The position numbers were made by a program, and so were the translations under genes. From NCBI RefSeq assembly GCF_016839145.1, contig NZ_CP069303.1, forward strand, positions 2,232,001-2,296,000: a DNA stretch of 64,000 nt. The letters run 5' to 3'. Of the stretch, positions 10,155 through 64,000 are shown piece after piece. The first letter of the stretch is position 1; every line of letters starts with the position of its first letter. Under the pieces are notes generated by a model. It ran no database searches and had not been told where the DNA came from. It saw nothing but the letters and a program-made list of their open reading frames with translations. Origin of the DNA: Shinella sp. PSBB067 (GTDB lineage: Bacteria > Pseudomonadota > Alphaproteobacteria > Rhizobiales > Rhizobiaceae).

Positions 10155-10158
10155 GCGC

Positions 10159-14137: not shown

Positions 14138-14141
14138 AGGC

Positions 14142-16713: not shown

Positions 16714-16789
16714 GGCGGGACCATTGCACTGCAACATGGCCGCGGCAAACGACATTTATTGATCAACGGATCAGCGCCGGTGAAGGCTT

Positions 16790-17542: not shown

Positions 17543-17588
17543 CGCATCTCTCTTTCGCGGGGCGTCCTAGCACGTCCGCGCCGCGCTG

Positions 17589-18662
17589 TCAGGCGGAAGG
17601 GGCCATTTCCGCCCTGGGCTCGTCCGCCAGCATCTCGCGCACCAGCGGCGCGACCTTCGTGCCGTAAAGCTCGATCCCGCGCAGGATGCGGTCGTGTGGC
17701 ATCAGGCCGATCGCCATCTGGAGCAGGAAGCGGTCGTTGCGGAAGATCTTGTGGTGGGCGACGATCTTCTTCGCGACCGTCTCGGGATCGCCGAGGAAGA
17801 GATGGCCGTCCGGCCCGGTCGACTGGTCGAACTGCGCCCGGCTCGTCGGCCCCCAGCCGCGCTCGCGGCCGATGCGGTTCATCACCTCGGCCTGCGGCCC
17901 GTAGAAGGTGTCGGCCGCTTCCGCCGTCGTATCGGCGATGAAGCCGTGCACGTTGATGCTGGTCTTCAGCTTCGCCTCGTCCTGTCCCGCGCGCCGCGCG
18001 GCCTCGCGGTAGAGATCGAAGAGCGGCGCATAGCGCGCCGGCGTGCCGCCGATGATGGCGAGCGCCAGCGGCAGGCCATAGGCCCCTGCCCGCGCCACCG
18101 ACTGCGGCGTGCCGCCGACGGCGATCCAGACCGGCAGCCGGCCATGGAGGGGCCGCGGATAGACGCCGATGCCCGAAAGCGGCGCGCGCATGACGCCGTT
18201 CCACGAGACCTTTTCGCTTGCGTTGAGTGCGAGCAGCAGGTCGAGCTTTTCCTCGAAGAGCTGGTCGTAGTCGTCGAGCGCATAGCCGAAGAGCGGAAAG
18301 GATTCGATGAAGGAGCCACGCCCCGCCATGATCTCCGCCCGGCCGCCGGACAGAAGATCGACCGTCGAGAACTGCTGGAACACGCGCACCGGATCGTCCG
18401 ACGACAGCACCGTCACCGCGCTCGAAAGACGGATGGTCTTCGTGCGCGCCGCCGCGGCGGCCAGGATGACGGCCGGCGCCGAGGCCGCATAATCCGGCCG
18501 GTGATGCTCGCCGAGCCCGAAGACATCGAGCCCCACCTGATCGGCAAGCTCGATCTCTTCCAGCAGGTTCTTCAGCCGCCGCTCCCCTTCCCGCCCCTTG
18601 TCGGCGGCATTGGGATCGACATCGGCGAAGGTATAGAGGCCAAGTTCCATGGGATGTTCCAT
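17589..18662 (-). CDS. LLM-class (luciferase-like) flavin-dependent oxidoreductase
   Basis: A 357-residue TIM-barrel F420/FMN-type monooxygenase-like protein. It begins [14 protein letters not shown] and continues with [20 protein letters not shown], the LLM signature block near residue 50, and [17 protein letters not shown] near residue 125. In the family such proteins use reduced FMN and oxygen to oxidise small substrates, but this subgroup is uncharacterised. Two starts are possible, 18662 and 18650; the second matches relatives better and has GGA upstream. It lies downstream of the ECF sigma gene on the same strand with a 69 bp gap, so it could be in that regulon. Confidence 0.8.
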
Positions 18663-18731
18663 ATGAGAGGATTTTCCCTCAGATATGGCGCGCGGGCGGA
18701 GGTTGGAAGAGGCGCCGGGGAAACAGTGTGT

Positions 18732-19997
18732 TCACGGGGCCGGAAACATCGCGCCGGCGGCCTCGCGCTGCATGCTGTCGAGATGCTGGCGGATATGGGC
18801 CGCCTCGGCCGAGGTGGTGGCGAGCGCGATGGCGCGGTCGAAGGCCTGATGCGCCTCCCCATAGCGGCCAAGCTGCTTGAGGAGGCCGCCGCGCAGGCCA
18901 TGGAAATAGAAATAGCCGTCGAGCTTTTCCGCCAGCGGCTCGATGAGCGCCAGCGCCGCCTCCGGCCCCTCGCGCTTGGCGACCGCGACAGCCCGGTTGA
19001 GCCGCACCACCGGCGAGGGCTGGAGCCGTTCCAGCGTCTGGTAGAGAAGGTCGATCTCCACCCAGTCCGTCTCCGCCGCCGTCGCGGCGCGGGCATGCAG
19101 CGCGGCAATCGCCGCCTGTATCTGGAAGGGGCCGGGCGCGCGGTGGCGCAGCGCCTTGTCGATCAGCACCAGTGCCTCGTCGATGAGCGCGCGGTCCCAG
19201 AGCGAGCGGTCCTGATCCTCTAGCAGCACGATCTGCCCGTTCCCGTCGAAGCGGGCGGCGAGCCGGGAATGCTGGATGAGCAGCAGCGCCGTCAGTCCCA
19301 TGATCTCGGGCTCCGCCGGAAAGAGCTTGAGCAGCAGCCGGGCGAGCCGGATCGCCTCCGTGCAGAACGGCGTATCCGCTTTCTCGGGCACCCCGGCCGA
19401 ATAACCCTCGTTGAAGACGAGATAGATCATCGCCGCGACCAGCCCGAGCCGTTCGGCCCGCGCCACGGCATCCGGCGTCTCGAAGGGAATGCCGGCCGCG
19501 CCGACCTTGGCCTTGGCGCGGGTGATGCGCTGCTCCATCGCCGCTTCCGAGACGAGGAAGGCCCGAGCGATCTGCCTGACCGAAAGCCCGGAGACGATGC
19601 GCAGCGCCAGCGCGATCTGCTGCGTCGCCGGCAGGTCCGGATGGCAGCAGACGAAGAGCAGGCGCAGGATGTCGTCGCGGTAATGCGCGCCGTCCAGCCG
19701 GTCGGCCAGGTCGCTCTCGGTGTCCTCAAGGTCGGACAGCACCTCCTCGGGCGGCAGTGGCCGGGTTTTCGCGCGCTTCCTCACCTGGTCGATGCCGCTG
19801 TTGCGGCCGACGAAGATGAGCCATGCTGCCGGATCGCGCGGCGGGCCCTTGTCGGGCCATGTCCTCAGCGCGCGAAGGCAGGCCTCCTGAAAGGCCTCCT
19901 CCGCCATGTCGAGGTCACGGAAGTAGCGCAGCAGCGCCCCCATGGCCTGCGGCCGTGCCGAGGTGAGCGCCAGGTCGATCCAGGCAAGGTCCGTCAT
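18732..19997 (-). CDS. ECF42-type RNA polymerase sigma factor with long C-terminal extension
   Basis: A 421-residue sigma factor, about twice the usual ECF length. The sigma2 region (DMAEEAFQEACLRALRTWP) and sigma4 region (IVSGLSVRQIARAFLVSEAAMEQRI) occupy the first 190 residues. The rest is an Ala/Leu-rich, TPR-like helical extension containing YLVFNEGYSAG. This layout, and a DGPF/YCII gene immediately before it, define the ECF42 group. These lack a classical anti-sigma factor; in studied members the extension is needed for activity. The start codon overlaps the stop of the DGPF gene (4-bp TCAT on the plus strand), so the two are translationally coupled. Confidence 0.9.
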   Translation of the reverse strand: MTDLAWIDLALTSARPQAMGALLRYFRDLDMAEEAFQEACLRALRTWPDKGPPRDPAAWLIFVGRNSGIDQVRKRAKTRPLPPEEVLSDLEDTESDLADRLDGAHYRDDILRLLFVCCHPDLPATQQIALALRIVSGLSVRQIARAFLVSEAAMEQRITRAKAKVGAAGIPFETPDAVARAERLGLVAAMIYLVFNEGYSAGVPEKADTPFCTEAIRLARLLLKLFPAEPEIMGLTALLLIQHSRLAARFDGNGQIVLLEDQDRSLWDRALIDEALVLIDKALRHRAPGPFQIQAAIAALHARAATAAETDWVEIDLLYQTLERLQPSPVVRLNRAVAVAKREGPEAALALIEPLAEKLDGYFYFHGLRGGLLKQLGRYGEAHQAFDRAIALATTSAEAAHIRQHLDSMQREAAGAMFPAP

Positions 19998-48791: not shown

Positions 48792-50000
48792 TCAGCCCTT
48801 GTTCTTGTTGTAGACGTCGAAGAACACGGCGGCGAGCAGCACCAGGCCCTTGATGAGCTGCTGGTAGTCGATGCCGATGCCCATGATCGACATGCCGTTG
48901 TTCATCACGCCCATGATGAAGGCGCCGATGACCGCACCGGTGATCTTGCCGACCCCGCCCGACGCCGAGGCGCCGCCGATGAAGCAGGCCGCGATGACGT
49001 CGAGCTCGAAGCCGACGCCGGCCTTCGGCGTCGCCGAGTTGAGGCGGGCCGCGATGATCATGCCGGCAAGCGCGGCGAGCGCGCCCATGTTGACGAAGGT
49101 ATAGAAGGTCAGCCGCTCGGTATTGATGCCCGAGAGCTTCGCCGCCTTCTCGTTGCCGCCCATCGCATAGATGCGCCGGCCGATGGTCGTGCGCGTCGTC
49201 ACGAACGTATAGAGCGCGATCAGGAGGCCCATGACGACCAGCACGTTGGGCAGGCCGCGATAGGTGGAGAGCTGGAAGCCGAGGAAGATCGCCACGGCAC
49301 CGATGACCGCCATCTGCACGGCGAAGAAGGCGAAGGGCTCGTTCTCCGTCTCGTGCAGCGTGTTCATGCGCCGCTCGCGCAGGCCCGCATAGACGGCATA
49401 GGCGACGAGCGCCAGCACGGCGATGAGCGCGACATAGTTCTTGATGAGGCTGGTCGCAGGATCGGTGAACGACAGGAAGTCCGGCACGAAGCCGGTGGAG
49501 AGGATCTGGAACTCCTTCGGGAACGGACCGACCGGACGGCCGCCGAGCACGACATAGGTCATGCCGCGGAAGACGAGCATGCCGGCCAGCGTCACGATGA
49601 AGGACGGGATCTTCTGGTAGGCGACCCAATAGCCCTGCGCCGCGCCCATGACAGCGCCGACGAGGATGCAGGCCGGCACGACGACGATCGCCGGCAGCCC
49701 CCATTTCACCAGCATGATCGCCGATATGGCGCCGATGAAGGCGACGATGGAGCCGACCGAGAGATCGATGTGCCCCGCCACGATGATGAGCAGCATGCCC
49801 AGCGCCATGATGACGATGAACGAGTTCTGCAGCACCAGGTTGGTGATGTTGATCGGGCGGAAGAGCACGCCGTTGGTGATGGCCTGGAAGAAGATCATGA
49901 TCACGACGAGCGCCACGAGCAGGCCGTATTCGCGGATGTTCTTCCTGAGATAGTCCCCCACCGAGGTCTGGGTCGTCTTGGTCGCGGTGTCGGTGGCCAT
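48792..50000 (-). CDS. gguB: Sugar ABC transporter permease GguB (MmsB)
   Basis: A 402-residue BPD_transp_2-family permease with about ten or more membrane spans, longer than typical RbsC-like permeases, as usual for GguB/XylH-type proteins. Key blocks: NSFIVIMALGMLLIIVAGHIDLSVGSIVAFIGAISA near residue 55, GRRIYAMGGNEKAAKLSGIN near 265, and FELDVIAACFIGGASASGGVGKITGAVIGAFIMGVMNNGM near 330. Its ATG shares the A of the gguA stop (TAATG), so translation is coupled. It imports monosaccharides bound by ChvE. Confidence 0.93.
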   Translation of the reverse strand: MATDTATKTTQTSVGDYLRKNIREYGLLVALVVIMIFFQAITNGVLFRPINITNLVLQNSFIVIMALGMLLIIVAGHIDLSVGSIVAFIGAISAIMLVKWGLPAIVVVPACILVGAVMGAAQGYWVAYQKIPSFIVTLAGMLVFRGMTYVVLGGRPVGPFPKEFQILSTGFVPDFLSFTDPATSLIKNYVALIAVLALVAYAVYAGLRERRMNTLHETENEPFAFFAVQMAVIGAVAIFLGFQLSTYRGLPNVLVVMGLLIALYTFVTTRTTIGRRIYAMGGNEKAAKLSGINTERLTFYTFVNMGALAALAGMIIAARLNSATPKAGVGFELDVIAACFIGGASASGGVGKITGAVIGAFIMGVMNNGMSIMGIGIDYQQLIKGLVLLAAVFFDVYNKNKG

Positions 50001-51535
50001 TAATGTTTCTCCCCGGAGCGCATGATGGCGCGCATGATGGATTCCTGGCTTGCTTCCGCCTTGGAGAGCTCGGCCACGATGCGTCCTTCGTTCATGACAT
50101 AGATGCGATCGCAGGTCCCGAGCAGTTCCGGCATCTCCGACGAGATCATCAGGATGCCCTTGCCCTCGGCGGCAAGCTGGTTGATGATGGTATAGATTTC
50201 GAACTTGGCGCCGACATCGATGCCGCGCGTGGGTTCATCGAGGATCAGCACCTCGGGATTGGTGAAGAGCCACTTCGACAGCACGACCTTCTGCTGGTTG
50301 CCGCCCGAAAGATTGACCGCTTCCTGGTAGATCGAATGCGAGCGGATGCGCAGCTTCTGCCGGTAGCCGGAGGCGACCTTCGCTTCCTGCCGGTTGTCGA
50401 TCACGCTCGCCCGGGAAACGTCCTTCAGGTTGGCGAGCGTCGTGTTGTGCATGATGTTGTCGATCAGCACGAGGCCGAGCTGCTTGCGGTCTTCCGTCAC
50501 ATAGGCAAGGCCCGCGTCGATGGCCTTCGGGATCGTGCTCACGTCCACGGGCTTGCCGCGCATGGTGACGTCGCCGGTGATCTTGTGGCCCCAGCTCCTG
50601 CCGAAGAGGCTCATCGCCGTCTCGGTACGCCCGGCCCCCATGAGGCCGGCGATGCCGACCACCTCGCCGGCGCGCACGGTGAAGCTCACGTCATGCAGGA
50701 ACTGCCGGTCGCGGTGCTGCTGGTGGAAGACGTTCCAGTTCTTCACCTCCAGGAGCGTCTCGCCGATCGCGGCCTCGCGCGGCGGATAGCGGTCTTCCAT
50801 CTCGCGGCCGACCATGCCCTTGATGATGCGGTCTTCCGAGATGTCGCCGGTGTGGCAGTCGAGCGTCTCGACCGTGCCGCCGTCGCGCAGGATGGTGATC
50901 TGGTCGGCGACCTTTTTGATTTCGTTTAGCTTGTGCGAGATGATGATCGAGGTCATGCCCTGCGTGCGAAACTCCACGAGCAGCTTGAGCAGCGCGTCGG
51001 AGTCCTTCTCGTTCAGCGAGGCGGTCGGCTCGTCGAGGATGAGCAGGCGAACCTTCTTGGAGAGCGCCTTGGCGATCTCGACGAGCTGCTGCTTGCCGAC
51101 GCCGATATTGGTGATCAGCGTGCCCGGCGGCTCCCTGAGGCCCACCTTGTCGAGCAGTTCCTGCGTGCGGCGGAAGGTGGCCTTCCAGTCGATCACGCCG
51201 TTCGTCGCCACCTCGTTGCCGAGGAAGATGTTCTCGGCGATCGACAGCAGCGGCACGAGCGCCAGCTCCTGGTGGATGATGATGATGCCCAGATGCTCGC
51301 TGTCGGAGATCGTGGAGAAATGGCGGACCTCGCCGTCGAAATGGATTTCTCCCTCGTAGGAGCCGTCCGGATAGACGCCGCTCAGCACTTTCATGAGGGT
51401 GGATTTGCCTGCGCCGTTCTCGCCGACAAGCGCGTGGATCTCGCCTTCGCGGACCTTCAGGTTGACGTTGTCGAGCGCCTTTACTCCGGGGAACGTCTTC
51501 GTGATGCCACGCATTTCGAGAAGGGTCTTGCTCAT
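50000..51535 (-). CDS. gguA: Sugar ABC transporter ATP-binding protein GguA (MmsA)
   Basis: A 511-residue duplicated ABC ATPase of the carbohydrate-uptake class 2 family. Domain 1 has Walker [11 protein letters not shown] near residue 36, a variant signature [16 protein letters not shown] and Walker [13 protein letters not shown]. Domain 2 has a degenerate Walker A (GLMGAGRTE) and the intact signature [15 protein letters not shown] with [11 protein letters not shown], the usual asymmetry. It powers GguB. The start is ATG 51535; no strong ribosome site is visible, and the gene is separated from chvE by a hairpin, which may lower its expression relative to the binding protein. Confidence 0.94.
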
Positions 51536-51612
51536 ATACCAGTTTCCAGCGGCCATCGCCTGCAAGAAGGCAGGCAAGGCGAGCCTATTCGCTCTGCGAT
51601 CCGGATAAAAGA

Positions 51613-51637
51613 GGGTTCGCGCGGGAAGCGCGAACCC
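51613..51637 (-). terminator. Internal attenuator-like terminator between chvE and gguA
   Basis: A perfect 10-bp stem, GGGTTCGCGC with GCGCGAACCC, and a 5-base loop; on the minus strand it is followed by TCTTTTATCC. It lies 18 bp after the chvE stop. Partial termination here would give more binding protein than ATPase and permease. Confidence 0.7.
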
Positions 51638-51655
51638 CTTGCAATGGAAGAACGA

Positions 51656-52729
51656 TCAGTTCTTGAGCTGGTCGGCCGTGTAGTAGCCGGAGTCCTCGAC
51701 GAGGATCTTCTCGGCGTTGGACTTGTCGACGGCGACCGGCTTCAGCAGGTAGGACGGAACGACCTTGACGCCGTTGTCGTAGGTCTTGGTGTCGTTCACT
51801 TCCGGTTCCTTGCCTTCCATGATCGCGTTGACCATGTTGACGGCGACCTTGGCGAGTTCGCGCGTGTCCTTGAAGACCGTCGAATACTGCTCGTCGGCCA
51901 GGATCGACTTGACGGACGGAAGCTCGGCGTCCTGGCCAGTGACAACAGCCATCGGCTGGTCGCCCGAGCCGTAGCCGACGCCCTTCAGGGCCGACAGGAT
52001 GCCGATGGACAGGCCGTCATAGGGCGAAAGCACGCCATCGACGCGGCCGTCGGTGTAGGTCGAGGAGAGCAGGTTCTCCATGCGGGCCTGCGCGACCGCG
52101 CCGTCCCAGCGCAGCGTGCCGACGGTTTCCATGCCGGTCTGGCCCGACTTGATGACGATGTCGCCCTTGTCGATCAGCGGCTGGATGACCGACATGGCGC
52201 CGTCATAGAAGAAGAAGGCGTTGTTGTCGTCCGGCGAACCGCCGAAGAGCTCGACGTTCCACGGCTTGGTGTCCGGGAACTTCGCCTTCAGGCCGTCGAC
52301 GAGGCTGGTGGCCTGCAGGACGCCGACCTGGAAGTTGTCGAAGGTGGCGTAGTAGTCGACATTGCCCGAATCGCGGATCAGGCGGTCATAGGCGATGACC
52401 TTGACGCCGGCATCGGCAGACTTCTGGAGGATGTCCGAGAGGGTCGTGCCGTCGATGGCGCCGATCACGAGGACCTTGGCGCCCTTGGTGACCATGTTCT
52501 CGATCTGGGCGAGCTGGTTCGGAATGTCGTCGTCGGCGAACTGCAGGTCCGGCGTGTAGCCGGCGTCCTTGAACAGCTTTTCCATCGTCTCGCCGTCCGA
52601 GATCCAGCGGGTCGAGGTCTTGGTGGGCATGGAAATGCCGACCATGCCCTTGTCCTGGGCAAAGGACGGCGCCACGAACGACGCGACGCTGATGGCAGCG
52701 GCGGCGAGAAGCGAAGTGATCATTTTCAT
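51656..52729 (-). CDS. chvE: Periplasmic multiple-sugar-binding protein ChvE
   Basis: A 357-residue periplasmic binding protein of the xylose/arabinose class. A signal peptide ([20 protein letters not shown], cleavage after SFA near residue 24) precedes the two-lobed domain: [107 protein letters not shown] and [14 protein letters not shown]. This closely follows Agrobacterium ChvE, which binds galactose, arabinose, glucose and related sugars, feeds GguAB and, in Agrobacterium, also activates VirA. GGGAGAGA precedes the ATG. First gene of the operon; the gbpR promoter is divergent. Confidence 0.94.
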
Positions 52730-52927
52730 TGAACGGTCTCTCCCTGGTGCGCACTGGCCGAAATTGCAGCCAGGCATTGTTCCGTGCGCCGGCGGGGCCG
52801 CATTCAGGCGACGCCTGGACTGGTCGGGCAAAAGCCCGCCGATCCCCACTCCCAAGGACCCCAGCGCACATTGGCGCAAGGTCTACCGAATTGCCATAAC
52901 TGTCAAATGCAATGAACTTCTAAACCG

Positions 52928-54496: not shown

Positions 54497-54634
54497 GCCG
54501 GCAATGTCCGCCCCCCTCTTCCGTCATGCTCGGGCCTATCCCGGGCATCCGCAAACGTTGCGATCCTTCAAAGCGTTGGCAGACCCTCGGCACAAGGCCG
54601 AGGATGACGAAGCAAGGTTTGCCGATGAGCTGCC
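54497..54634 (-). repeat. RIME-like palindromic intergenic element, copy 3 (diverged, reverse)
   Basis: The reverse orientation of the 2421-2571 element: CCGTCATGCTCGGGCCTATCCCGGGCATCC, then CCTCGGCACAAGGCCGAGGATGACG. It is the most diverged copy (about 138 bp) and fills the gap between the convergent J-domain-like and membrane-protein genes. Confidence 0.8.
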
Positions 54635-54894: not shown

Positions 54895-54988
54895 GCGTTT
54901 CCGCTTTTCTCCGAAATCGCGAAAGCGCCTTATCGCGGCTCCACGCAGTTCCGGACGCAAAACCGCTGCGCACGTTTTCCGGAATTGC
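54895..54988. repeat. Rhizobial palindromic repeat, composite copy (54895-54988)
   Basis: The left part (GTTTCCGCTTTTCTCCGAAATCGCGAAAGCGCC) matches the reverse complement of 4062-4100. The right part, 54945-54988, is a 44-bp unit with ends GCAGTTCC and GGAATTGC that also occurs at 57092-57135. It lies between the membrane protein and the PanB-like gene. Confidence 0.75.
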
Positions 54989-55033
54989 TTCAGCGCCTAC
55001 ATAGGCGGTTTTCCGGCGCGAGGAAACCGGCTT

Positions 55034-55828
55034 TCAACCATCCAGCCGTTCGAGGAAGGCGGCAAGCTCCGCCGCCTCGATGCCGACGAGATGGCCCTTT
55101 TCCGGATAGGCGCCGGAGCGCACGTCGTCGGCATATTCGCGGAAGGCGGCGATGCGCTCCTGCTGCAGCCGGTCGTATTCGGCGGCGAAGTTGCGGTAAA
55201 CCTTGGCATGGCGTGGATAGTGGCCGCGGTTCTGGCCGAGCACGTCCTCGGCGAAGAGATATTGCGCGTCGCAGCCGGTGCCGGCGCCCATGGAGAGCAT
55301 GACGAGCGAGGTCTTCGCGCTGATCGCGGCGGCGACCTCGCCCGGCACGACCTCGATCTCGGCCGCGAAGGCGCCCGCCTCCTCCAGCGCCTTGACCTGC
55401 CGGAAGATATCCAGCGCGATCTCCGCCGTCTTGCCGACGGCGCGGAAGCCGCCCGTCCACGTCGCCTTGGAGGGGATGAGGCCGACATGGCCGCAGACCG
55501 GGATGCCCTCCTCGCGCAACCGCCGCACGGTCGAAAGGCCGGCCGCGCAATAGACGGCATCGCCGCCCGCCTTCATCGCCTGGAAGGCGCCGCGCAGGTA
55601 ATCGTCGGCGGTGACGAAGTCGCCATATTCGAGGCCCGGAAAGGCGAAGACCGTCGGCGCGGCCTCGCGAAAGGCAGGCCCCAGCAGGGCGGGCGGCACG
55701 GAGACGAGGTCGATGCCCGCCTGCTCGGCGGCCTCCGCCTCCTCCAGCGTCACGACGCGCAGCATGGTGAGCTGACGCTTGCCCTTCATGGCCTGGAGGT
55801 CGGCGACGGTCGGTCTCTTGGTCTTCAC
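55034..55828 (-). CDS. PanB paralogue (ketopantoate hydroxymethyltransferase fold) lacking metal ligands
   Basis: A 264-residue protein that aligns with PanB over its full length: GIPVCGHVGLIPS (PanB GHLGLTP), IEVVPGEVAAAIS (PanB ECVP with the catalytic Glu kept) and GHYPRHAKVYRNF (PanB GHIPKFAKNF). However, the PanB magnesium ligands are gone: VGDSLG is replaced by VSVPPALLG, LADLPF by FAFPGLEYGD, and VKIEGG by VYCAAG. It is therefore unlikely to make ketopantoate for CoA, and no panC adjoins it. It starts 10 bp from the mocF stop in the same direction, so it is probably part of the moc operon. Role unknown. Confidence 0.78.
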   Translation of the reverse strand: MKTKRPTVADLQAMKGKRQLTMLRVVTLEEAEAAEQAGIDLVSVPPALLGPAFREAAPTVFAFPGLEYGDFVTADDYLRGAFQAMKAGGDAVYCAAGLSTVRRLREEGIPVCGHVGLIPSKATWTGGFRAVGKTAEIALDIFRQVKALEEAGAFAAEIEVVPGEVAAAISAKTSLVMLSMGAGTGCDAQYLFAEDVLGQNRGHYPRHAKVYRNFAAEYDRLQQERIAAFREYADDVRSGAYPEKGHLVGIEAAELAAFLERLDG

Positions 55829-55838
55829 GGGGATCTCC

Positions 55839-57062
55839 TCAGGCGGCGAGCAGTTTCTTGAGCTTGGTTTCCGGCGCGGCGAGCTCCGCCGGGTCGGGAT
55901 GGATGCGGGCGGCGATCAGCATTTCCGCAAGGCGGATGTCGCGGGCGACCGCATTGCCCGGCCCGATGCCGCTCGCCGCGATCAGCCGGCCCTCGCCGTC
56001 GAGATGGAACAGGATGAAGGCCCCCTCGCCCATCTCGCGCCGCACCGTCGTCACCGTCCCGTCGGCAAGGCCGGCGATCTGGAGCGTCATGTCGTACTGG
56101 TCCGACCAGAACCACGGCACGGCCGAATGGACCTCCGCGCCGCCCAGCATGTTGGCGGCGGCAAGCTGGCCCTGCTCCTGCGCGTTGCGCCAGGATTCGA
56201 GGCGGATGCGGCGATCACCGTAAAGGGGAAGCGGATAAGACGTGCAGTCTCCCGCAGCGAAGATATCAGCATCGGAGGTGCGCAGATGGCCGTCGACGGC
56301 AACGCCGTTGTCCACCGCAAGGCCGGCGGCCTCCGCCAGCTCCGTGTTCGGCACCGCGCCGATACCGACGACGAGGAGGCTTGCGGAAACGACGCGGCCA
56401 TCCTCCAGCGAAATGCGCACCTCACCCGGCAGGTCCTCGATCCCCGTGACCTTCGCGCCGCAGAGAATCTCCACGCCTTCGGCGATGTGCCGGTCGGCGA
56501 CGATCTCGGCGATCTCGGGCGGCACGCCCCGCGTCAGCACGCGCGGCAGGCCCTCGACCAGCGTGACGGAGGCGCCCAGCTTGCGGGCGCTCGCGGCAAG
56601 CTCCAGCCCGATGAAGCCGCCGCCGAGAATGGCGACATGGCTGCCCTCCACCAGATGCGCGCGGATGCGGGCCGCATCGTCATGACTGCGCAGCGCCGCG
56701 ATGCGGCCGCCGTGGTTTGCCCCCGGCAGGGCGCGCGGGCGCGCGCCGGTGGCCAGCAGCAGCCTGTCATAGGCAACGACGGTGCCGTCTCCCAGAACGA
56801 CATGCCTTGCGGCGCGGTCGATCTCGGACACCGTGCGGCCGAGCAGAAGGTCGATGCCGGCCTCCACATAGCGCTCCGCCTGCGCGACCAGCTTCGGGCC
56901 GGCGCCCGCGACCAGCGCCTCCTTGGAGAGCGGCGGGCGCTCATAGGGCAGATGGGTTTCGCTGCCGATCAGGGTGATCGCGCCGTCGAAGCCCTTTTCG
57001 CGCAGCGCGAAGGCCGCGCGTGCGCCGCATTCGCCGGCACCGACGATGACGAAACTCATCAT
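55839..57062 (-). CDS. mocF: FAD-dependent ferredoxin reductase of a moc-type oxygenase (MocF-like)
   Basis: A 407-residue reductase of the putidaredoxin-reductase type: FVIVGAGECGARAAFALRE binds FAD, PYERPPLSKEAL follows, VAILGGGFIGLELAASARKLG near residue 145 binds NAD(P)H, and ADIFAAGDCTSYP closes the FAD site. It would pass electrons from NAD(P)H to the Rieske ferredoxin encoded next to it. GAGG is found eight or so bases before ATG 57062; a second Met follows directly. It lies between the ferredoxin gene and the PanB paralogue, with a palindromic repeat in the 74-bp gap before it. MocF is the matching gene in Rhizobium leguminosarum rhizopine catabolism. Confidence 0.87.
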   Translation of the reverse strand: MMSFVIVGAGECGARAAFALREKGFDGAITLIGSETHLPYERPPLSKEALVAGAGPKLVAQAERYVEAGIDLLLGRTVSEIDRAARHVVLGDGTVVAYDRLLLATGARPRALPGANHGGRIAALRSHDDAARIRAHLVEGSHVAILGGGFIGLELAASARKLGASVTLVEGLPRVLTRGVPPEIAEIVADRHIAEGVEILCGAKVTGIEDLPGEVRISLEDGRVVSASLLVVGIGAVPNTELAEAAGLAVDNGVAVDGHLRTSDADIFAAGDCTSYPLPLYGDRRIRLESWRNAQEQGQLAAANMLGGAEVHSAVPWFWSDQYDMTLQIAGLADGTVTTVRREMGEGAFILFHLDGEGRLIAASGIGPGNAVARDIRLAEMLIAARIHPDPAELAAPETKLKKLLAA

Positions 57063-57091
57063 GGCGATATCCTCTATCTCTTTGTTTCTAC

Positions 57092-57135
57092 GCAATTCCG
57101 GACGCAAAACCGCTGCACACTTTTGCTGGAATTGC
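57092..57135. repeat. 44-bp palindromic repeat between mocE and mocF
   Basis: Perfect ends GCAATTCC (57092-57099) and GGAATTGC (57128-57135). The interior CGCAAAACCGCTGC...CACTTTTGC repeats that of 54945-54988. It lies within the operon and touches the mocE stop, so it is transcribed and may act as a processing or stability hairpin. Confidence 0.8.
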
Positions 57136-57136
57136 T

Positions 57137-57451
57137 CTAGAGACCGATGAAGACGGTGCCGCCCTCGACCTTGACCGGATAGGTCTTGAGGTCGATGCAA
57201 ACCGGCGCGCCCAGCGCCTCGCCGCTCTTGTAGTTGAAGCGGCCGTTGTGCTTGGGACATTCGATGACGTGGTCCATCACGAGGCCGTCGGCGAGGTGGA
57301 TCTTCTCGTGCGTGCAGAGCCCGTCCGTGGCGTGATAGGTGTCTTCCGGGCTGCGGTAGATCGCGAAGGTCCGGCCCGCATGGTCGAAGCGGATGACGTC
57401 CTCCTCGTCGATCTCGTCCGCCGCGCAGACCTCGATCCAGGTGTCGCTCAT
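57137..57451 (-). CDS. mocE: MocE-family Rieske [2Fe-2S] ferredoxin
   Basis: A 104-residue Rieske ferredoxin. Cluster ligands are C46 and H48 (CTHEK) and C65 and H68 (CPKHNGRF), the CxH...CxxH pattern. The N-terminus MSDTWIEVCAADEIDEEDVI and the C-terminus VKVEGGTVFIGL complete the small beta-barrel. It would shuttle electrons from the reductase to the membrane oxygenase encoded upstream. GGAGGAGA stands before the ATG. It is second in the mocD-mocE-mocF order, 24 bp after mocD. Confidence 0.92.
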   Translation of the reverse strand: MSDTWIEVCAADEIDEEDVIRFDHAGRTFAIYRSPEDTYHATDGLCTHEKIHLADGLVMDHVIECPKHNGRFNYKSGEALGAPVCIDLKTYPVKVEGGTVFIGL

Positions 57452-57475
57452 GGTCTCTCCTCCAGTATCTGTTGG

Positions 57476-58561
57476 TTATTCGGCGGCAGCAAAGGCCGGT
57501 TCCGCGTGGAGTTCTTCCTTGTAGGGCCGCGCCGTCGGTGGCAGCTCCCGCTTCAGGAAGTAGTCCTCGTTGCGAAGCTGGCGCAGGAAGGCCGGGATCA
57601 TCTCCCTGTAGCCGTGCCACATCGACGGGTTCGGCGCCGGCAGGTCGTGCCTGATCATGGCGTGCAGCCTCGGCAGCGCATGGTAGGGCACCATCGGGAA
57701 CATGTGGTGTTCCACATGGTAGTTCATGTTCCAGTAGATGAAGCGGCTGACCGGGTTCATGTAGACCGTGCGGCTGTTCAGCCGATGGTCGATGACATTG
57801 TCGGCAAGGCCGCCGTGCTGCAGCAGCCCCGTCAGCACATGGTGCCAGGCGCCGTAGAGCCGCGGCAGGCCGATCAGCATGGCCGGCAGGATCGAGCCGA
57901 ACGCGAAGCAGGCGGCGATGGTCGCGACATAGATGGCGAGCCAGATGCGGGCGATGCGGATCGCCTTCGGCTGCTCGGATTCGGGGATGAAGGTCTTTTC
58001 CGCAGCGCTCATGACACCGGCCGCATTGCGCAGCATGTCGATGACGGCATGCCAGGCATCGAGAAGGCCGAAGAAGTTCAGCACGAGGCGCGCAAGATCC
58101 GGCGGGCGCATGACGGCGATTTCCGGGTCGCGGCCGACGATCACCGTATCCGTATGGTGGCGCGTATGGCTCCAGCGCCAGGTCACCGGATTGCGCATGA
58201 TCATGAAGCAGGCGATCTGGTAGACCGCATTGTTCATCCACATCGTCTTGAAGGCCGTGCCGTGGCCGCATTCGTGCCAGCGGCTGTCGGAGGCCGAGCC
58301 GTAGAGCACGCCATAGACGAGGAAGAACGGCACGCAGGCCCAGGTTCCCCAGAACCACGCGCCCAGCCCGCCCGAAACGACAAGACAGCCGAGCCAGATC
58401 GCGGTGTCGCGGATCGCCGGGGCGTCGCTGCGCTGCATCAGCGCCTTCATTTCCTTGCGGGGGATTTCGGTGTGGTACCACTCGGCTGCCGCAAGACCGT
58501 TGGCAACCGCGGCCTCGGCATCGCGGCCAAGAAGGCTGTAGTCCCGCTTCGTCGGCTTCAT
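57476..58561 (-). CDS. mocD: Membrane di-iron oxygenase of the fatty-acid desaturase type (MocD-like)
   Basis: A 361-residue integral membrane protein with the three histidine boxes of desaturases and alkane hydroxylases: HECGH (H96-H100), HTRHH (H132-H136) and HVEHH (H282-H286), which hold two irons. Hydrophobic segments lie near residues 55-90, 205-232. In R. leguminosarum MocD with MocE and MocF is needed for demethylation of the rhizopine 3-O-methyl-scyllo-inosamine. ATG 58561 has a strong GGAGGAGA site; the longer open frame is excluded. It is first in the moc operon and divergent from the LacI regulator, 160 bp away. Confidence 0.87.
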   Translation of the reverse strand: MKPTKRDYSLLGRDAEAAVANGLAAAEWYHTEIPRKEMKALMQRSDAPAIRDTAIWLGCLVVSGGLGAWFWGTWACVPFFLVYGVLYGSASDSRWHECGHGTAFKTMWMNNAVYQIACFMIMRNPVTWRWSHTRHHTDTVIVGRDPEIAVMRPPDLARLVLNFFGLLDAWHAVIDMLRNAAGVMSAAEKTFIPESEQPKAIRIARIWLAIYVATIAACFAFGSILPAMLIGLPRLYGAWHHVLTGLLQHGGLADNVIDHRLNSRTVYMNPVSRFIYWNMNYHVEHHMFPMVPYHALPRLHAMIRHDLPAPNPSMWHGYREMIPAFLRQLRNEDYFLKRELPPTARPYKEELHAEPAFAAAE

Positions 58562-58652
58562 CGCTCGTCTCCTCCATGAGGGGGCGTTTCCGCTCCACGC
58601 CTCGTCCAGTGACCAAACGATAGCGCCGCTCCTTGCGTCTCTCAATCCTGCC

Positions 58653-58704
58653 ATGATAGAATGCATCAAATTCCATCATCCGCTATCATTCGTCCTTGAT
58701 GGAA
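58653..58704. promoter_or_regulatory. Candidate operator region between mocD and the LacI gene
   Basis: An AT-rich stretch with ATGATAG (58653-58659) facing CTATCAT (58683-58689), and TTCCATCA (58671-58678) facing TGATGGAA (58697-58704). The second 8-mer also occurs upstream of iolI at 59772-59779. The shared sequence suggests control by the LacI protein encoded here; this is inference. Confidence 0.5.
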
Positions 58705-58723
58705 AGATTTCAGGGAGGGGAAA

Positions 58724-59755
58724 ATGGCATCGAGACCCACCATCTCGGATCTCGCCCGCGCCGCCGGCGTCAGCGTCGCGACGGTCGACCGGGTGCTGAA
58801 CGGCCGCCACAAGGTCCGCGAGGAGACGGCGCGCCGGGTCTACGAGGCGGCCAATGCGATCGGCTACCACGCCATCGGCCTCATCCGGCAGCGCGTCTTC
58901 GAGGACCTGCCGCAATATAGGCTCGGCTTCAGCCTTCAGCGCCCGAGCCAGGCCTTCTACCAGAACTTCGCCCGCGAGATCGAAATCGCCTGCAATGCCT
59001 GCACGACCGCCCGCATCGTGCCGCAGGTCGACTTCATCAACGCACAGACCCCGGCGGCGATGACGGAGATGCTGCGCCAGCTTTCCGCGCGCAACCAGGC
59101 GCTCGCCGTCGTCGCGCCGGACTATCCGGCGACGACCGCCATGGTGGAGGAACTGAAAGAGCGCGGCCTTCCGCTGTTCTGCCTGCTCTCCGACTTCGCC
59201 ATGGACGTGCGGCAGGGCTATATCGGCCTCAACAACATGAAGGTCGGGCGCACGGCGGCCTGGATGATCGCCAAGGGCGCAAAACGGCCGGGCAAGGTGG
59301 CGATCTTCGTCGGCAGCCACCGCTTCCACGGCCACGAGCTGCGCGAGATGGGCTTCCGTTCCTTCTTCCGCGAGAAGGGCCAGGATTTCGAGGTGCTGGA
59401 CACGCTGGTCAATCTCGACACCAGCGAGATCACCCACGAGGCGACGGCGAACCTCCTTGCCCAGCACCCCGACCTCGTCGGCCTCTATGTCGCCGGCGGC
59501 GGCATGGAGGGGGCGATCTCGGCGATCCGCGAGGAAGGTTACGCCGGGCGGATCCAGCTCATCGTCAACGAGCTGACGCCCGAATCGAAGGCCGGCCTTG
59601 CCGACGACGTCGTTACCATGGCGATCAACACCCCGCTGCCGGCCCTCTGCCGCGAGCTCGTCTCGCTGATGGTCACCGCCATCGAGAAGGGCGGAAACGC
59701 CGTTCCGGGGCAGACCTTCCTGCCCTTCGACATCCTCCTGCCGGAAAATATCTGA
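58724..59755 (+). CDS. LacI-family transcriptional regulator
   Basis: A 343-residue LacI/GalR repressor. The N-terminal ISDLARAAGVSVATVDRVLNGRHKVREETARRV is the HTH plus hinge helix; a periplasmic-binding-like domain follows (KRPGKVAIFVGSHRFHGHELREMGF, LVGLYVAGGGMEGAISAIREEG, LIVNELTPESKAGLADDVVTMAI). The ligand pocket resembles that of inositol/ribose-type binding proteins, which fits neighbours iolI and ibpA. GGGAGGGG precedes the ATG. It is divergent from mocD and followed 163 bp later by iolI, with a candidate operator in each gap. Confidence 0.88.
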   Translation: MASRPTISDLARAAGVSVATVDRVLNGRHKVREETARRVYEAANAIGYHAIGLIRQRVFEDLPQYRLGFSLQRPSQAFYQNFAREIEIACNACTTARIVPQVDFINAQTPAAMTEMLRQLSARNQALAVVAPDYPATTAMVEELKERGLPLFCLLSDFAMDVRQGYIGLNNMKVGRTAAWMIAKGAKRPGKVAIFVGSHRFHGHELREMGFRSFFREKGQDFEVLDTLVNLDTSEITHEATANLLAQHPDLVGLYVAGGGMEGAISAIREEGYAGRIQLIVNELTPESKAGLADDVVTMAINTPLPALCRELVSLMVTAIEKGGNAVPGQTFLPFDILLPENI

Positions 59756-59763
59756 CCCCGGGA

Positions 59764-59779
59764 TGATGGTTTTCCATCA
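59764..59779. promoter_or_regulatory. Candidate LacI operator upstream of iolI
   Basis: TGATGG-TTTT-CCATCA is a perfect inverted repeat 8 bp after the LacI stop. Its right half TTCCATCA is an exact match to the 8-mer in the mocD-LacI gap. Confidence 0.5.
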
Positions 59780-59918
59780 CGCCTTCGGCCAAATCTTTCA
59801 GCGATGAAGGCGCCCGCCGCGCCTTCGGCTTTGACGCCCGTCAAGTGCGTCCCGATCCTCATGCGTGCATGCGAGGCCGCCCTGTCGGCGGCCTCGAAGA
59901 CCGGAGGACACCCATTCC

Positions 59919-60731
59919 ATGCCGCCCCTTGATTTCGCCCTCAACCACATGACGGCCCCCGGCCTCAAGCTGGACGCCTTCTTCGCCCTTGCCGTCTCCC
60001 TCGGCATGAAGGCGGTGGAGATTCGCAACGACCTCGACGGCAACGCCATCCTCGACGGCACGACACCGGCCGAGGTGAAGGCGCTCGCCGAGCGCCACGG
60101 CGTCACGATCATCTCGATCAACGCGCTCCAGCGCTTCAACGAGTGGACGCCCGCCCGCGCCGCCGAGGCGAAGGACCTCATCGACTATGCCAGCGCCTGC
60201 GGCGCCCGCGCGCTGGTGCTCGTGCCGAAGAACGACGGCACCGGCCAGGCCGACGGCGAGCGCCAGGCGAACCTGCGCACGGCGCTGACGGCCCTGAAGC
60301 CCCTGCTCGACGCCGCCGGCATCGTCGGCCTCGTCGAGCCGCTCGGCTTCGAGGTCTGCTCGCTGCGCTCCAAGCGCGAGGCGGCCGAGGCGATCCGCGC
60401 CGTCGGCGGCGAAACGACGTTCCGCCTGGTGCACGACACGTTCCACCATCACCTTGCCGGCGAGCCCGACCTCTTCGCCGACCTCACCGGCCTCGTGCAC
60501 ATTTCCGGCGTCGAGGACCCGGCGGTCTCCGTTTCCGACATGCGCGACGGCCACCGCGTCCTCGTCGGCCCGAAGGATCGCCTCGATAATGCCGGCCAGA
60601 TCAAGGCCCTCCTGGCCGCCGGCTATGCCGGCCCGCTCTCCTTCGAGCCCTTTTCGCCTTCCGTCCACGACGTCGCGGACCCGAAGGCCGCCGTTGCCGA
60701 AAGCGTCGCTTTCCTCAGCGCAAATATCTGA
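59919..60731 (+). CDS. iolI: IolI-like TIM-barrel isomerase (inosose isomerase family)
   Basis: A 270-residue AP-endonuclease-2-fold sugar isomerase/epimerase. Blocks seen: FALNHMTAPGLKLDAFFALAVSLGMKAVEIRNDL, ISINALQRFNEWTPARAAEA near residue 70, VEPLGFEVCSLRSKREA with a metal-site Glu near 142, RLVHDTFHHHLAGEPDLF near 175 and LSFEPFSPSVHDVADPKAA with a second Glu near 245. This matches IolI (2-keto-myo-inositol isomerase) and the related MocC. ATG 59919 has GGAGGA upstream with a slightly long spacer. A 14-bp hairpin follows the stop immediately, so it is probably transcribed apart from ibpA. Confidence 0.82.
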   Translation: MPPLDFALNHMTAPGLKLDAFFALAVSLGMKAVEIRNDLDGNAILDGTTPAEVKALAERHGVTIISINALQRFNEWTPARAAEAKDLIDYASACGARALVLVPKNDGTGQADGERQANLRTALTALKPLLDAAGIVGLVEPLGFEVCSLRSKREAAEAIRAVGGETTFRLVHDTFHHHLAGEPDLFADLTGLVHISGVEDPAVSVSDMRDGHRVLVGPKDRLDNAGQIKALLAAGYAGPLSFEPFSPSVHDVADPKAAVAESVAFLSANI

Positions 60732-60733
60732 AA

Positions 60734-60771
60734 AGCCTCACGCCGGCGGCCCCTGCTGCCGGCGTGAGGCT
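60734..60771. terminator. 14-bp perfect hairpin after iolI
   Basis: AGCCTCACGCCGGC (60734-60747) pairs perfectly with GCCGGCGTGAGGCT (60758-60771). It starts 2 bp after the iolI stop. The A run lies on the left, so the U tract is on the minus strand; on the plus strand it would act mainly by its stem. Its right arm joins a RIME-like element. Confidence 0.65.
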
Positions 60772-60921
60772 GCCGACAAATTGCGACAACCTCTCTTCCG
60801 TCATGCTCGGGCCTGTCCCGAGCATCTGCAAAGTCTCCATTTTTTCAATATGTTGGCAGATCCTCGGGACAGGCCCGAGGATGACGACAGTGGGTGGAAC
60901 AAGGTTTGTCGACAAGCGGAT
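60770..60921 (-). repeat. RIME-like palindromic intergenic element, copy 4 (reverse)
   Basis: About 152 bp, reverse orientation to copies 1 and 2, with both ends preserved (CTGCCGACAAATTG and GGTTTGTCGACAAGC). The core reads CCGTCATGCTCGGGCCTGTCCCGAGCATCTGC, an AT-rich spacer, then CAGATCCTCGGGACAGGCCCGAGGATGACG. It occupies much of the 421-bp gap between iolI and ibpA. Confidence 0.88.
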
Positions 60922-60998
60922 GCCGGTATTTTTTCCCCAGGACCCGGGCCTTGCCTTATCGCTGAAATGGAACGGGCTTGACGTCCCGGGCAGAAAAT

Positions 60999-61041
60999 GG
61001 AATAAACATTCCGCAATACGGAATTCGCGGTTTGTTTATTC
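60999..61041 (+). promoter_or_regulatory. Candidate IolR operator and nested palindromes upstream of ibpA
   Basis: GGAATAAACATTCC (60999-61012) fits GGAA-N6-TTCC, the IolR motif that I recall from Sinorhizobium meliloti. It overlaps ATTCCG-N5-CGGAAT (61008-61024). A wider inverted repeat, GAATAAACA (61000-61008) with TGTTTATTC (61033-61041), surrounds both. The cluster lies about 112-154 bp before the ibpA start, in the only AT-rich part of the gap. Confidence 0.55.
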
Positions 61042-61152
61042 TGTTTTGACCTTTTGCATCCCGGGAGGAGCAAGGGGCGGGCCGTCCCGCAAGGGCCGGT
61101 CATCCGGTTGATCTGTGGTGCCGCCGGACACCATGTTGAGGAGGAGAACAAC

Positions 61153-62082
61153 ATGAAAAAATTCATTCTTGGTTCGGCGCTCGCCGTCATGATGTCCACG
61201 GCCGCCCATGCCGAAACGATCGGCGTTTCCATGGCGCTGTTCGACGACAACTTCCTGACCGTCCTGCGCAACGGCATGTCCGACTATGCCAAGACGCTCG
61301 ACGGCGTCGAGCTGCAGATCGAGGACGCCCAGAACGACGTCGCCAAGCAGCAGAGCCAGGTCCAGAACTTCATCGCCTCGGGCGTCAGCGCCATCATCGT
61401 GAACCCGGTCGATACCGACGCGACCGCCGCGCTCTCCAAGGCGGCCGCCGATGCCGGCATTCCGCTGGTCTACGTCAACCGCGAGCCGGCCAACGTCAAC
61501 GAACTGCCGGAAAAGCAGGCCTTCGTCGCCTCCAACGAGCAGGAATCCGGCACGCTGGAAACCAAGGAAGTCTGCCGTCTGCTGAACGGCAAGGGCAAGG
61601 TCGTCGTCATGATGGGCGAGCTGTCCAACCAGGCCGCCCGCATGCGCACGCAGGACATCAAGGACGTCATTGCGACCGACGAGTGCAAGGGCCTCGAGAT
61701 CGTCGAGGAGCAGACCGCCAACTGGTCGCGCACCCAGGGCTCGGACCTGATGACCAACTGGCTCTCCGCCGGCCTGGAATTCGACGCCGTCATCTCCAAC
61801 AATGACGAAATGGCCATCGGCGCCATCCAGGCCCTGAAGGCCGCCGGCCGCTCGATGGACAGCGTCGTCGTCGCCGGTGTCGACGCCACGCAGGACGCGC
61901 TTGCGGCCATGGCTGCCGGCGACCTCGACGTCACCGTGTTCCAGGATGCCGCCGGCCAGGGCAAGGGCTCGGTCGACGCCGCACTGAAGCTCGCCAAGGG
62001 CGAGAAGGTGGATACCAAGGTCTACATCCCCTTCCAGCTTGTGACCCCGGCGAACATCGCCGACTTCCAGGCGAAGAACTGA
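61153..62082 (+). CDS. ibpA: Periplasmic inositol-type sugar-binding protein
   Basis: A 309-residue cluster B periplasmic binding protein. The signal peptide is [20 protein letters not shown]. The mature domain has [25 protein letters not shown]-type [39 protein letters not shown], and C-terminal [31 protein letters not shown], all similar to rhizobial IbpA and MocB, which bind myo-inositol or rhizopine. GAGGAGAAC precedes the ATG. It is first in the ibpA-iatA-iatP operon (gaps 103 bp and 36 bp). Confidence 0.87.
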
Positions 62083-62185
62083 CCGGCTCGCCGGCAAACG
62101 AAAACCGATTAGACTGCCATGGACGCGCGCACGCCTGCGTGCGCGCGTCCGACCCGTTTCAGGTGCTCCGGGAGGGAGGAACACG

Positions 62186-63724
62186 ATGGTCAGTCCGACC
62201 ACCATGGCCGCGGTTCGTGCAAGCGGCGCCATTCCGAATGCGGATTATCTTCTGTCCGCGGAAGGCATCCGCAAGGAATTCCCCGGCGTCGTCGCGCTCG
62301 ACGACGTCCAGTTCAAGCTGAAGCGCGGCACCGTGCATGCCCTGATGGGCGAGAACGGCGCCGGCAAGTCCACCCTGATGAAGATTCTCGCCGGCATCTA
62401 CACGCCCGATCAGGGCGAGGTGCTGCTGAAGGGCCAGAAGATCCGGCTCGCATCGCCGCTCGACGCGCTGGAGAACGGCATCGCCATGATCCATCAGGAG
62501 CTCAACCTGATGCCCTTCATGACGGTCGCCGAGAACATCTGGATCCGCCGCGAGCCGAAGAACCGCTTCGGCTTCGTCGATCACGGCGAGATGCATCGCA
62601 AGACGGCCGCCCTCTTCAAGCGCCTCAACATCGCGATGGACCCGGAAACGCAGGTGCGCGACCTCTCCGTCGCCAACCGCCAGATGGTCGAGATCGCGAA
62701 AGCCGTCTCCTACGAGAGCGACGTCCTCATCATGGACGAGCCGACCTCGGCGCTGACGGAACGGGAGGTGGAACATCTCTTCACCATCATCCGGGACCTT
62801 CGCTCGCAGGGCATCGGCATCGTCTACATCACCCACAAGATGAACGAGCTGTTCGAGATCGCCGACGAATTCTCGGTCTTCCGCGACGGCAAGTATATCG
62901 GCACCCACGCCTCGACTGACGTGACGCGCGACGACATCATCCGCATGATGGTCGGCCGCGAGATCACCCAGATGTTCCCGAAGGAGGAGGTGCCGATCGG
63001 CGACGTCGTCCTGTCGGTGAAGAACCTCACCCTCAAGGGCGTCTTCCACGATGTTTCCTTCGACGTGCGCGCCGGCGAGATCCTCGGCCTCGCCGGCCTC
63101 GTCGGCTCGGGCCGCTCGAATGTCGCCGAGACGATCTTCGGCGTGACGCCCGCCACGTCAGGCACGATCTCGATCAACGGCAAGGAAGTCGCGATCGACA
63201 GCCCGAACACGGCGATCCGCCACCGCATGGCCTTCCTGACGGAAGACCGCAAGGACACCGGCTGTCTCCTGATCCTCGACATCCTCGAAAACATGCAGAT
63301 CGCCGTGCTGCAGGACAAGTTCGTCAAGAACGGCTTCGTCCAGGAGGGCGCGCTGAGCAAGGTCTGCGAGGAGATGAGCCGGAAGCTGCGCGTCAAGACG
63401 CCGAACCTTTCCGAAAGGATCGAGAACCTTTCGGGCGGCAACCAGCAGAAGGTGCTGATCGGCCGCTGGCTGCTCACCAATCCGCGCATCCTCATCCTCG
63501 ACGAGCCGACGCGCGGCATCGACGTCGGCGCGAAGGCGGAAATCCACCGCTTCGTCACGGAGCTTGCCCGCGACGGCGTCGCCGTCGTCATGATCTCGTC
63601 GGAAATGCCGGAAGTGCTCGGCATGAGCGACCGCGTCATGGTCATGCACGAGGGCCGCGTCACCGGCATCCTCGACCGCGCCGAGGCGACGCAGGTCAAG
63701 GTCATGGAACTGGCGGCCCAATAA
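62186..63724 (+). CDS. iatA: Inositol-type ABC transporter ATP-binding protein
   Basis: A 512-residue duplicated sugar ABC ATPase. Domain 1: Walker [10 protein letters not shown] at residues 55-63, signature [16 protein letters not shown] and Walker [12 protein letters not shown]. Domain 2: degenerate Walker [10 protein letters not shown], intact [16 protein letters not shown] and [12 protein letters not shown]. The N-terminus is extended by about 22 residues relative to RbsA. GGAGGGAGG stands before ATG 62186. It energises uptake by the ibpA and iatP products; the substrate is inferred from the binding protein and the IolR-like site. Confidence 0.92.
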
Positions 63725-63760
63725 GTTCAGGGCCGCCGAGCGGCCGCAAGGGAGGTAATC

Positions 63761-64000
63761 ATGAGCACGAATTCCGCAGCGCAGGCTCAAGGCCCCGCGC
63801 AGAAATCTGCCCGCCGGCTGCCGCCGGAACTCAGCATCTTTCTCGTCCTCGTCGGCATCGCGCTGGTCTACGAGATCCTCGGCTGGATCTTCGTCGGCCA
63901 GAGCTTCCTGATGAATTCGCAGCGCCTGACGATCATCATCCTTCAGGTCTCGGTCATCGGCATCATCGCCGTCGGGGTGACGCAGGTCATCATCACCGGG
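63761..64000 (+). CDS. iatP: Inositol-type ABC transporter permease, N-terminal part
   Basis: The first 80 residues of a BPD_transp_2 permease; the gene continues past the right edge. A polar N-terminus (MSTNSAAQAQGPAQKSARRL) is followed by span 1 (IFLVLVGIALVYEILGWIFV) and span 2 (LTIIILQVSVIGIIAVGVTQ) leading into the conserved VIITG start of the substrate loop. GGGAGGTAATC precedes the ATG. It forms an operon with iatA, 36 bp upstream, and a 6-bp hairpin lies in the gap. Confidence 0.88.
   Translation, partial: MSTNSAAQAQGPAQKSARRLPPELSIFLVLVGIALVYEILGWIFVGQSFLMNSQRLTIIILQVSVIGIIAVGVTQVIITG

Follow-up and report, generated by a model that had tools for sequence, protein, structure and literature searches.

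A mocDEF-type demethylase operon facing an inositol uptake operon in Shinella: a probable O-methyl-inositol catabolic unit with a PanB-like last gene

The mocDEF genes of Rhizobium leguminosarum and Sinorhizobium meliloti L5-30 encode the three-component oxygenase that O-demethylates rhizopine (3-O-methyl-scyllo-inosamine). A related arrangement was printed in 2013 by Sullivan, Brown and Ronson (PMC3538637), namely the fixV-msi119-mocDEF clusters, in which a LacI-type regulator gene (fixV) is divergent from mocD and, in several species, a PF01261 ‘epimerase’ gene comes next; an inositol derivative had already been inferred for these clusters. The third system of relevance, ibpA-iatA-iatP, is the myo-inositol transporter of Caulobacter and S. 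meliloti, and the S. meliloti IbpA counterpart is required for growth on myo-inositol (PMC2597717). Here we describe a locus of Shinella sp. PSBB067 in which these elements are combined. It lies in a 64,000-nucleotide stretch of the 5.8 Mb genome (contig NZ_CP069303.1, our C2, positions 2,232,001–2,296,000), which we call the window. The oxygenase is the same as in the rhizopine systems and the LacI, TIM barrel and mocDEF association is that of 2013, so that these, like the transporter, are already known. In contrast to the fixV-msi119-mocDEF clusters, however, the regulator arm runs on into ibpA-iatA-iatP-iolG, and, unlike the known transporter genes, those found here are linked to mocDEF. 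What is new is the complete inositol operon at the same locus and a gene related to panB (ketopantoate hydroxymethyltransferase) as the last of the mocDEF operon; the main text of PMC3538637 does not mention panB, ketopantoate, hydroxymethyl, purU or formyl. On balance we consider it probable that the locus serves the catabolism of O-methyl-inositols and is coupled to an operon for inositol uptake.

The locus occupies positions 55034–64000 of the window. The minus strand carries, in order, mocD, mocE, mocF and the PF02548 (PanB-like) gene, and the plus strand carries lacI, a PF01261 gene and the genes for a substrate-binding protein (SBP), an ATPase and a permease. The features are as follows.

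55034–55828, minus strand: PanB-like gene, last of the mocDEF operon (PF02548)
55839–57062, minus strand: mocF, flavin adenine dinucleotide (FAD)/NAD(P) ferredoxin reductase (Pyr_redox_2, PF07992, and Reductase_C, PF14759)
57137–57451, minus strand: mocE, MocE-family Rieske ferredoxin (TIGR02377, 175.4 bits against a cut-off of 136.15)
57476–58561, minus strand: mocD, membrane di-iron oxygenase, presumed O-demethylase (PF00487)
58654–58668, mocD–lacI gap: candidate 15-bp LacI-type operator, TGATAGAATGCATCA
58724–59755, plus strand: LacI/GalR-family regulator, divergent from mocD (PF00356 and PF13407)
59764–59779, lacI–TIM gap: 16-bp perfect palindrome, TGATGGTTTTCCATCA
59919–60731, plus strand: PF01261 TIM barrel (107.7 bits), presumed inosose (keto-inositol) isomerase or epimerase
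60999–61012, ibpA promoter: IolR-type box GGAA-N6-TTCC (motif match)
61153–62082, plus strand: ibpA, inositol-type SBP, 87% identical to the S. meliloti pSymB SBP
62186–63724, plus strand: iatA, ATP-binding cassette (ABC) ATPase, 89% identical to its S. meliloti pSymB counterpart
63761–64000, continuing to 64780 past the window end, plus strand: iatP, permease, 89% identical to the S. meliloti permease
64876–65874 in window numbering, just beyond the window: iolG, inositol 2-dehydrogenase (TIGR04380, 428.5 bits against a cut-off of 355)

The original prediction had placed mocD-mocE-mocF divergent from lacI and an ibpA-iatA-iatP arm, and domain, family or identity matches bear out each of these genes, as well as the three His boxes of MocD (found by pattern check at 137 of 137 loci), the Rieske CxH...CxxH ligands of MocE and the two dinucleotide-binding motifs of MocF (GxGxxG type, at residues 8 and 147). 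Its range begins at 55034, the end of the PanB-like gene, and yet its text omits that gene; iolG, just outside the window, was likewise missed. By these sequence criteria a PF00487 oxygenase, a ferredoxin and an FAD reductase lying side by side make up a MocDEF-type O-demethylase, demethylation itself being presumed; the nearest named MocD proteins are those of other Shinella (88–93% identity). The part of iatP inside the window is too short for a Pfam match, and the gene was identified by its similarity to the S. meliloti permease. The matching pSymB cluster, which also has a TIM barrel gene in front, is presumably SMb20712-4, and the import function is read from sequence. The closest protein to IolG in the PDB is 4hkt, an inositol 2-dehydrogenase. 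As for the TIM barrel, previously called iolI, it has E, D, H and E residues that align with the metal site of Bacillus subtilis IolI (1i60), which we take to be the PF01261 metal ligands. Its closest solved relatives are, however, 4hgx and 2q02 (E 1e-43), with 1i60 reaching only E 8e-6, and so we rejected its assignment as IolI proper: by sequence the protein is IolI-like and not IolI itself.

The search for MocD covered four overlapping samples: at order level 297 genomes, of which 47 gave a match at E ≤ 1e-60; at phylum level 397, of which 31 matched at 1e-50; at family level 199, of which 51 matched; and at genus level 21, of which 15 matched. Neighbours were scored by tblastn at 136 of the 142 distinct further mocD matches, which together with the present locus gives 137 loci; a second set of 80 named loci partly repeats the genome-drawn ones, and related genomes are not independent of each other. 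The first point to note is that mocE, mocF, the PanB-like gene, LacI, TIM barrel, SBP and IolG are all kept at the 15 Shinella mocD loci scored, this genome included. Over the genome-drawn loci with enough flank, a divergent LacI gene of at least 40% identity faces mocD in 69 of 134. An inositol-type SBP or IolG is nearby at 49 of the 71 loci with such a LacI, compared with 3 of the 66 without it, where ‘nearby’ means within the flank covered, at ≥55% identity to this SBP or three related inositol/rhizopine-type SBPs, or ≥45% to IolG. Differing arrangements in other bacteria lead to a similar conclusion. Beside TIM-LacI-mocDEF, Rhizobium sp. Q54 carries iolC, iolD and iolG together with an ABC system labelled ‘rhizopine-binding’; at the mocDEF locus of Nitratireductor, iolG is accompanied by an ABC system; Burkholderia cenocepacia has iolG and TIM barrel genes at that place, and a more distant LacI; and in S. 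meliloti the TIM barrel gene directly precedes the inositol-type transporter, with mocDEF at another place. Synteny of mocDEF with the ibpA arm had been named beforehand as a check on the proposed tie to inositol catabolism, and the complete arm facing mocDEF in all 15 Shinella, together with the same genes in Nitratireductor and Q54, supports that tie. The O-methyl-inositol reading is well supported, because the SBP/IolG association follows the divergent LacI so closely and the Shinella arrangement is invariant.

Many mocD loci without this LacI have mocD, often mocE, and a PanB-like gene together with galM (aldose 1-epimerase) and a different SBP (for example L095–L098, L100, L101 and L107). 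Because of the galM and the other SBP, these loci probably serve other methylated compounds, such as methylated sugars.

Gene content, its conservation, the conserved motifs and the loss of PanB metal-site residues are what the sequences show; the chemical steps, substrate and regulator roles that follow are inferred. IbpA-IatA-IatP would import inositols, and electrons would pass through MocF and MocE to MocD, which would hydroxylate a methyl-inositol at its O-methyl carbon, D-pinitol (3-O-methyl-D-chiro-inositol) being the likeliest substrate. The resulting hemiacetal would yield free inositol, to be oxidised by IolG, and the TIM barrel would isomerise the keto-inositol toward the common iol pathway, the iolD-iolE-iolB genes of this genome being at another place, away from the mocDEF locus. 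The PanB-like protein would load tetrahydrofolate with the one-carbon unit, taken directly from the hemiacetal or in the form of formaldehyde, whereupon FolD and PurU, which are encoded in the operon of some relatives and elsewhere in this genome, would oxidise the folate-bound unit to formate. LacI would govern mocDEF-panB-like and lacI-TIM through TGAT-N7/8-ATCA sites, and IolR would govern ibpA-iatAP-iolG. A second inositol-type cluster of this genome, at C2:3036337–3065031, holds IolE (390 bits) and IolG (383 bits) matches above their cut-offs and several more matches of Gfo/Idh type.

Pinitol is the likeliest single substrate, at somewhat less than an even chance. IolI connects 1-keto-D-chiro-inositol to scyllo-inosose. 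D-chiro-inositol is among the compounds processed through the B. subtilis iol operon, in whose scheme 1-keto-D-chiro-inositol appears (PMC5504672). An isomerase and IolG together therefore fit a chiro-configured product, as pinitol would give. In R. mesoamericanum exposed to Mimosa root exudate, mocDEF homologues were raised 1.53–2.11-fold, along with a mocB-like ABC operon, iolB, iolC, iolA and idhA, and of the compounds measured there pinitol had the highest concentration (145 μM, against 0.73 μM inositol; PMC5789663); we read the response as pinitol use. The same source names pinitol as a major constituent of certain legume root exudates. Our literature search yielded, among the matches listed, no bacterial pathway that demethylates a methyl-inositol other than rhizopine. 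Given this locus, methyl-inositol demethylation can be tested directly in S. meliloti and in Shinella. If the reading is right, it would explain why mocDEF is retained in bacteria unable to use rhizopine.

The original prediction also held that operator-like 8-mers are shared between the two arms. Around lacI this stands, since six 8-mers are common to the mocD–lacI and lacI–TIM gaps, where shuffled sequence would give 0.85 and 1 of 500 shuffles gave as many; toward the transporter it does not, the mocD–lacI and TIM–ibpA gaps sharing two against 2.23 expected. Across loci, the 15-bp TGAT-N7-ATCA form was found in the mocD–lacI gap within three mismatches of the consensus TGATATAATCTATCA at 33 of 65 loci, and the 16-bp form in the lacI–TIM gap within four mismatches at 25 of 38 (and in the mocD–lacI gap at 10 of 65), where 0.1 is expected for either form in its own gap, both consensus strings having been picked post hoc from the same loci and the annotated plasmid loci being excluded. 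Upstream of the SBP gene, the 15-mer occurs within three mismatches at 4 of 44 loci, all of Mesorhizobium type, with the SBP gene directly after lacI and no TIM barrel gene (L048, L091, L092 and L093). Because a LacI-type operator precedes the inositol-type SBP there, the transporter appears to have come under LacI control in those four.

LacI control of ibpA in the present genome was considered and rejected, as no 15-mer site below six mismatches lies upstream of ibpA. The promoter does contain the GGAA-N6-TTCC motif, which has been linked to IolR and is found at the known transporter too (PMC2597717). With three copies in the window against 0.96 expected, and as many in 7 of 100 shuffles, the motif is unremarkable alone; upstream of the SBP, however, it is present at 21 of 46 loci (0.25 of 46 expected), and at 15 of 15 in Shinella. 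The transporter here thus looks to be IolR-controlled. Because the ibpA promoter has an IolR-type box and not a LacI-type operator, the mocDEF and ibpA arms may partly answer to different inducers. The presence of iolG in the transporter operon is similarly as in M. loti, whose idhA/iolG lies inside the corresponding operon (PMC2597717).

The PanB-like gene lies at most 4.2 kb downstream of mocD on the same strand at 77 of 124 genome-drawn loci and at 54 of 72 named loci with flank. Where purU is next to mocD, a PanB-like gene is also present at 9 of 10 and 13 of 13 loci, and in the rhizopine-type locus of R. lentis a PanB-like gene is followed by purU. Whereas PanB itself makes ketopantoate, this relative sits in demethylase operons; the database name ‘PanB’ is very probably wrong, to judge from its sequence. 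The protein shows the PanB fold in the fold test, but falls short of both curated PanB models (TIGR00222, 111.2 against 207.55; PRK00311, 130.6 against 272). In the family, the equivalents of D45, D84, K112 and E114 (E. coli numbering), which we take to be metal- and substrate-binding residues of PanB, have become mostly Pro, Gly (93 of 95), Tyr (95 of 95) and Ala or Ser (88 of 95), respectively. The H136 and E181 equivalents are kept in 95 of 95, and a new invariant set, Y93/W124/E157/H207, has appeared. We examined eight PanB-like genes at distant places, of which three lie with MocE, one with a PF04116 di-iron hydroxylase and one with TIM barrel and IolG genes only. At one locus (L254), a distant MocD-like gene and a PanB-like gene lie with MocE and a creatinase-family gene (PF00557/PF01321), which may together form a pathway of N-demethylation.

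Our explanation of this gene, which we offer tentatively and at less than an even chance, is that it encodes a protein dedicated to accepting, with folate, the one-carbon unit released by oxidative O-demethylases, portable across MocD and an unrelated di-iron hydroxylase and mis-named in databases. A relative of PanB would have given up the metal and keto-acid site and would transfer the hydroxymethyl group of the hemiacetal, or formaldehyde, to tetrahydrofolate, with no build-up of free formaldehyde. The purU-mabO-folD operon of the nicotine plasmid pAO1 is a parallel, with a demethylating oxidase accompanied by FolD and PurU that oxidise the folate-bound one-carbon unit, although there the MabO oxidase itself makes methylene-tetrahydrofolate, whereas in Shinella the acceptor role would fall to a separate PanB-like protein (PMC3891541). 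Several observations weigh against such a role. Three of the eight distant genes show no link to demethylation, and a mocD match lies no more than 8 kb away at only 36 of 57 PanB-like places (among those of ≥54% identity, at 35 of 41); purU is found at a minority of loci only, and FolD at 3 of 151. A PanB-like match at E ≤ 1e-30 is missing from 17 of the 47 order-level genomes with MocD, and 18 of the 72 named loci have no PanB-like gene at mocD and no consistent replacement gene in its slot; MocDEF therefore does not depend on the PanB-like protein. It is also possible, if doubtful, that the protein is no one-carbon enzyme and that its substrate is the ring product, with, for example, isomerase, lyase or aldolase activity, given that the phosphoenolpyruvate-mutase/isocitrate-lyase fold permits many activities. 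However, the nearest relatives of the protein carry out methylene-tetrahydrofolate chemistry, and PurU accompanies it. Since the PanB-like gene keeps company with oxygenases of two families and with varying transporters and isomerases, the methyl group is a better candidate than the ring for what these settings share. A second ordinary panB serving pantothenate synthesis, as the annotation, PF02548 and the fold would have it, is scarcely credible and was rejected, because the cut-offs are missed, the metal-site residues are lost and another PF02548 protein, encoded elsewhere in the genome, scores 341 bits against 135; a review in which Pseudomonas putida J5 panB takes part in nicotine catabolism, explained by pantothenate synthesis, counts on its side (PMC3891541). 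No description of the family as a frequent demethylase partner was found in open-licence PMC text. If the acceptor role is true, this mis-annotated family may be a missing step in handling the formaldehyde from O-demethylation.

For the locus as a whole, the closeness to the R. lentis plasmid locus raises the question of rhizopine. There the genes that one would look for in a rhizopine locus (for a MocR-like regulator, an SBP, Gfo/Idh proteins and MocC/IolE) precede mocDEF, and the products are 63–78% identical to MocD, MocE and MocF (MocD 78%, MocE 76%; PanB-like protein 81%). The SBP at the MocB position is 73% identical to ours, against 87% for the inositol-type SBP, and the Shinella genome carries a second IolE/MocC-like gene. 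Nevertheless, we think a rhizopine locus very unlikely and rejected it. MocR drives mocB, mocD is rhizopine-inducible and MocR boxes have been proposed at both (PMC10107442), whereas the 36 kb scored around mocD contain no tblastn match to R. lentis MocR, and LacI stands in its place. In place of MocA, the sole Gfo/Idh match there is IolG, which exceeds its own cut-off and shares 30% identity with R. lentis MocA; MocC has no match at this locus, the IolE/MocC-like genes being elsewhere in the genome. Moreover, S. meliloti 1021 has the LacI type (SM_b20817-20820, PMC11387232) and yet cannot metabolise rhizopine (PMC2597717). The earlier caution that the substrate may differ from rhizopine is upheld by the lack of mocR and mocA, and the substrate is presumably a methyl-inositol without the amino group. 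An ordinary IolR-controlled ibpA-iatAP-iolG operon might otherwise simply lie beside a mocDEF that acts on an unrelated methyl compound, with no pathway link. In its favour, ibpA comes with a separate IolR-type box, and a strong hairpin divides the TIM barrel gene from ibpA; R. etli and R. leguminosarum plasmids carry LacI-TIM-mocDEF-panB flanked by cob and nad genes, no inositol-type SBP being nearby; and many mocD loci lacking LacI have galM and another SBP. We nonetheless regard it as improbable, given the 49 of 71 against 3 of 66 association, its recurrence in differing arrangements in Nitratireductor, Q54 and Burkholderia, and the S. meliloti TIM barrel gene directly before an inositol-type transporter though mocDEF is elsewhere. 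The O-methyl-inositol reading has points against it too: none of the ibpA promoters of the 15 Shinella loci, this one included, has a LacI-type site (best 15-mer match, six mismatches); the TIM barrel is only distantly IolI-like, which weakens the chiro-inositol argument; and the R. mesoamericanum change was small, was read by its authors as rhizopine catabolism and concerns a mocDEF that may not be of the LacI type (PMC5789663).

In Rhizobium-type plasmids or genomes (L005, L016, L017, L040, L042 and L139), a nadA-type gene is near the same module, and in the annotated L005, L016 and L017 cob genes flank the module on one side and nad genes on the other, not far from repA. To the left of the Shinella locus, at 48792–52879, a sugar ABC transporter (permease, ATPase and binding protein) has by reading a ChvE/GguAB-type look. 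To the right of iolG (L018, about 2251–19901), the open frames read as a ROK-like repressor, a second sugar ABC transporter and then phage-like genes. Two pairs of intergenic direct repeats were also seen, one of 98 nt at 81% identity (54513–54610 and 60790–60887) and one of 50 nt at 88% (54940–54989 and 57087–57136), the second copy of the latter being in the mocE–mocF gap.

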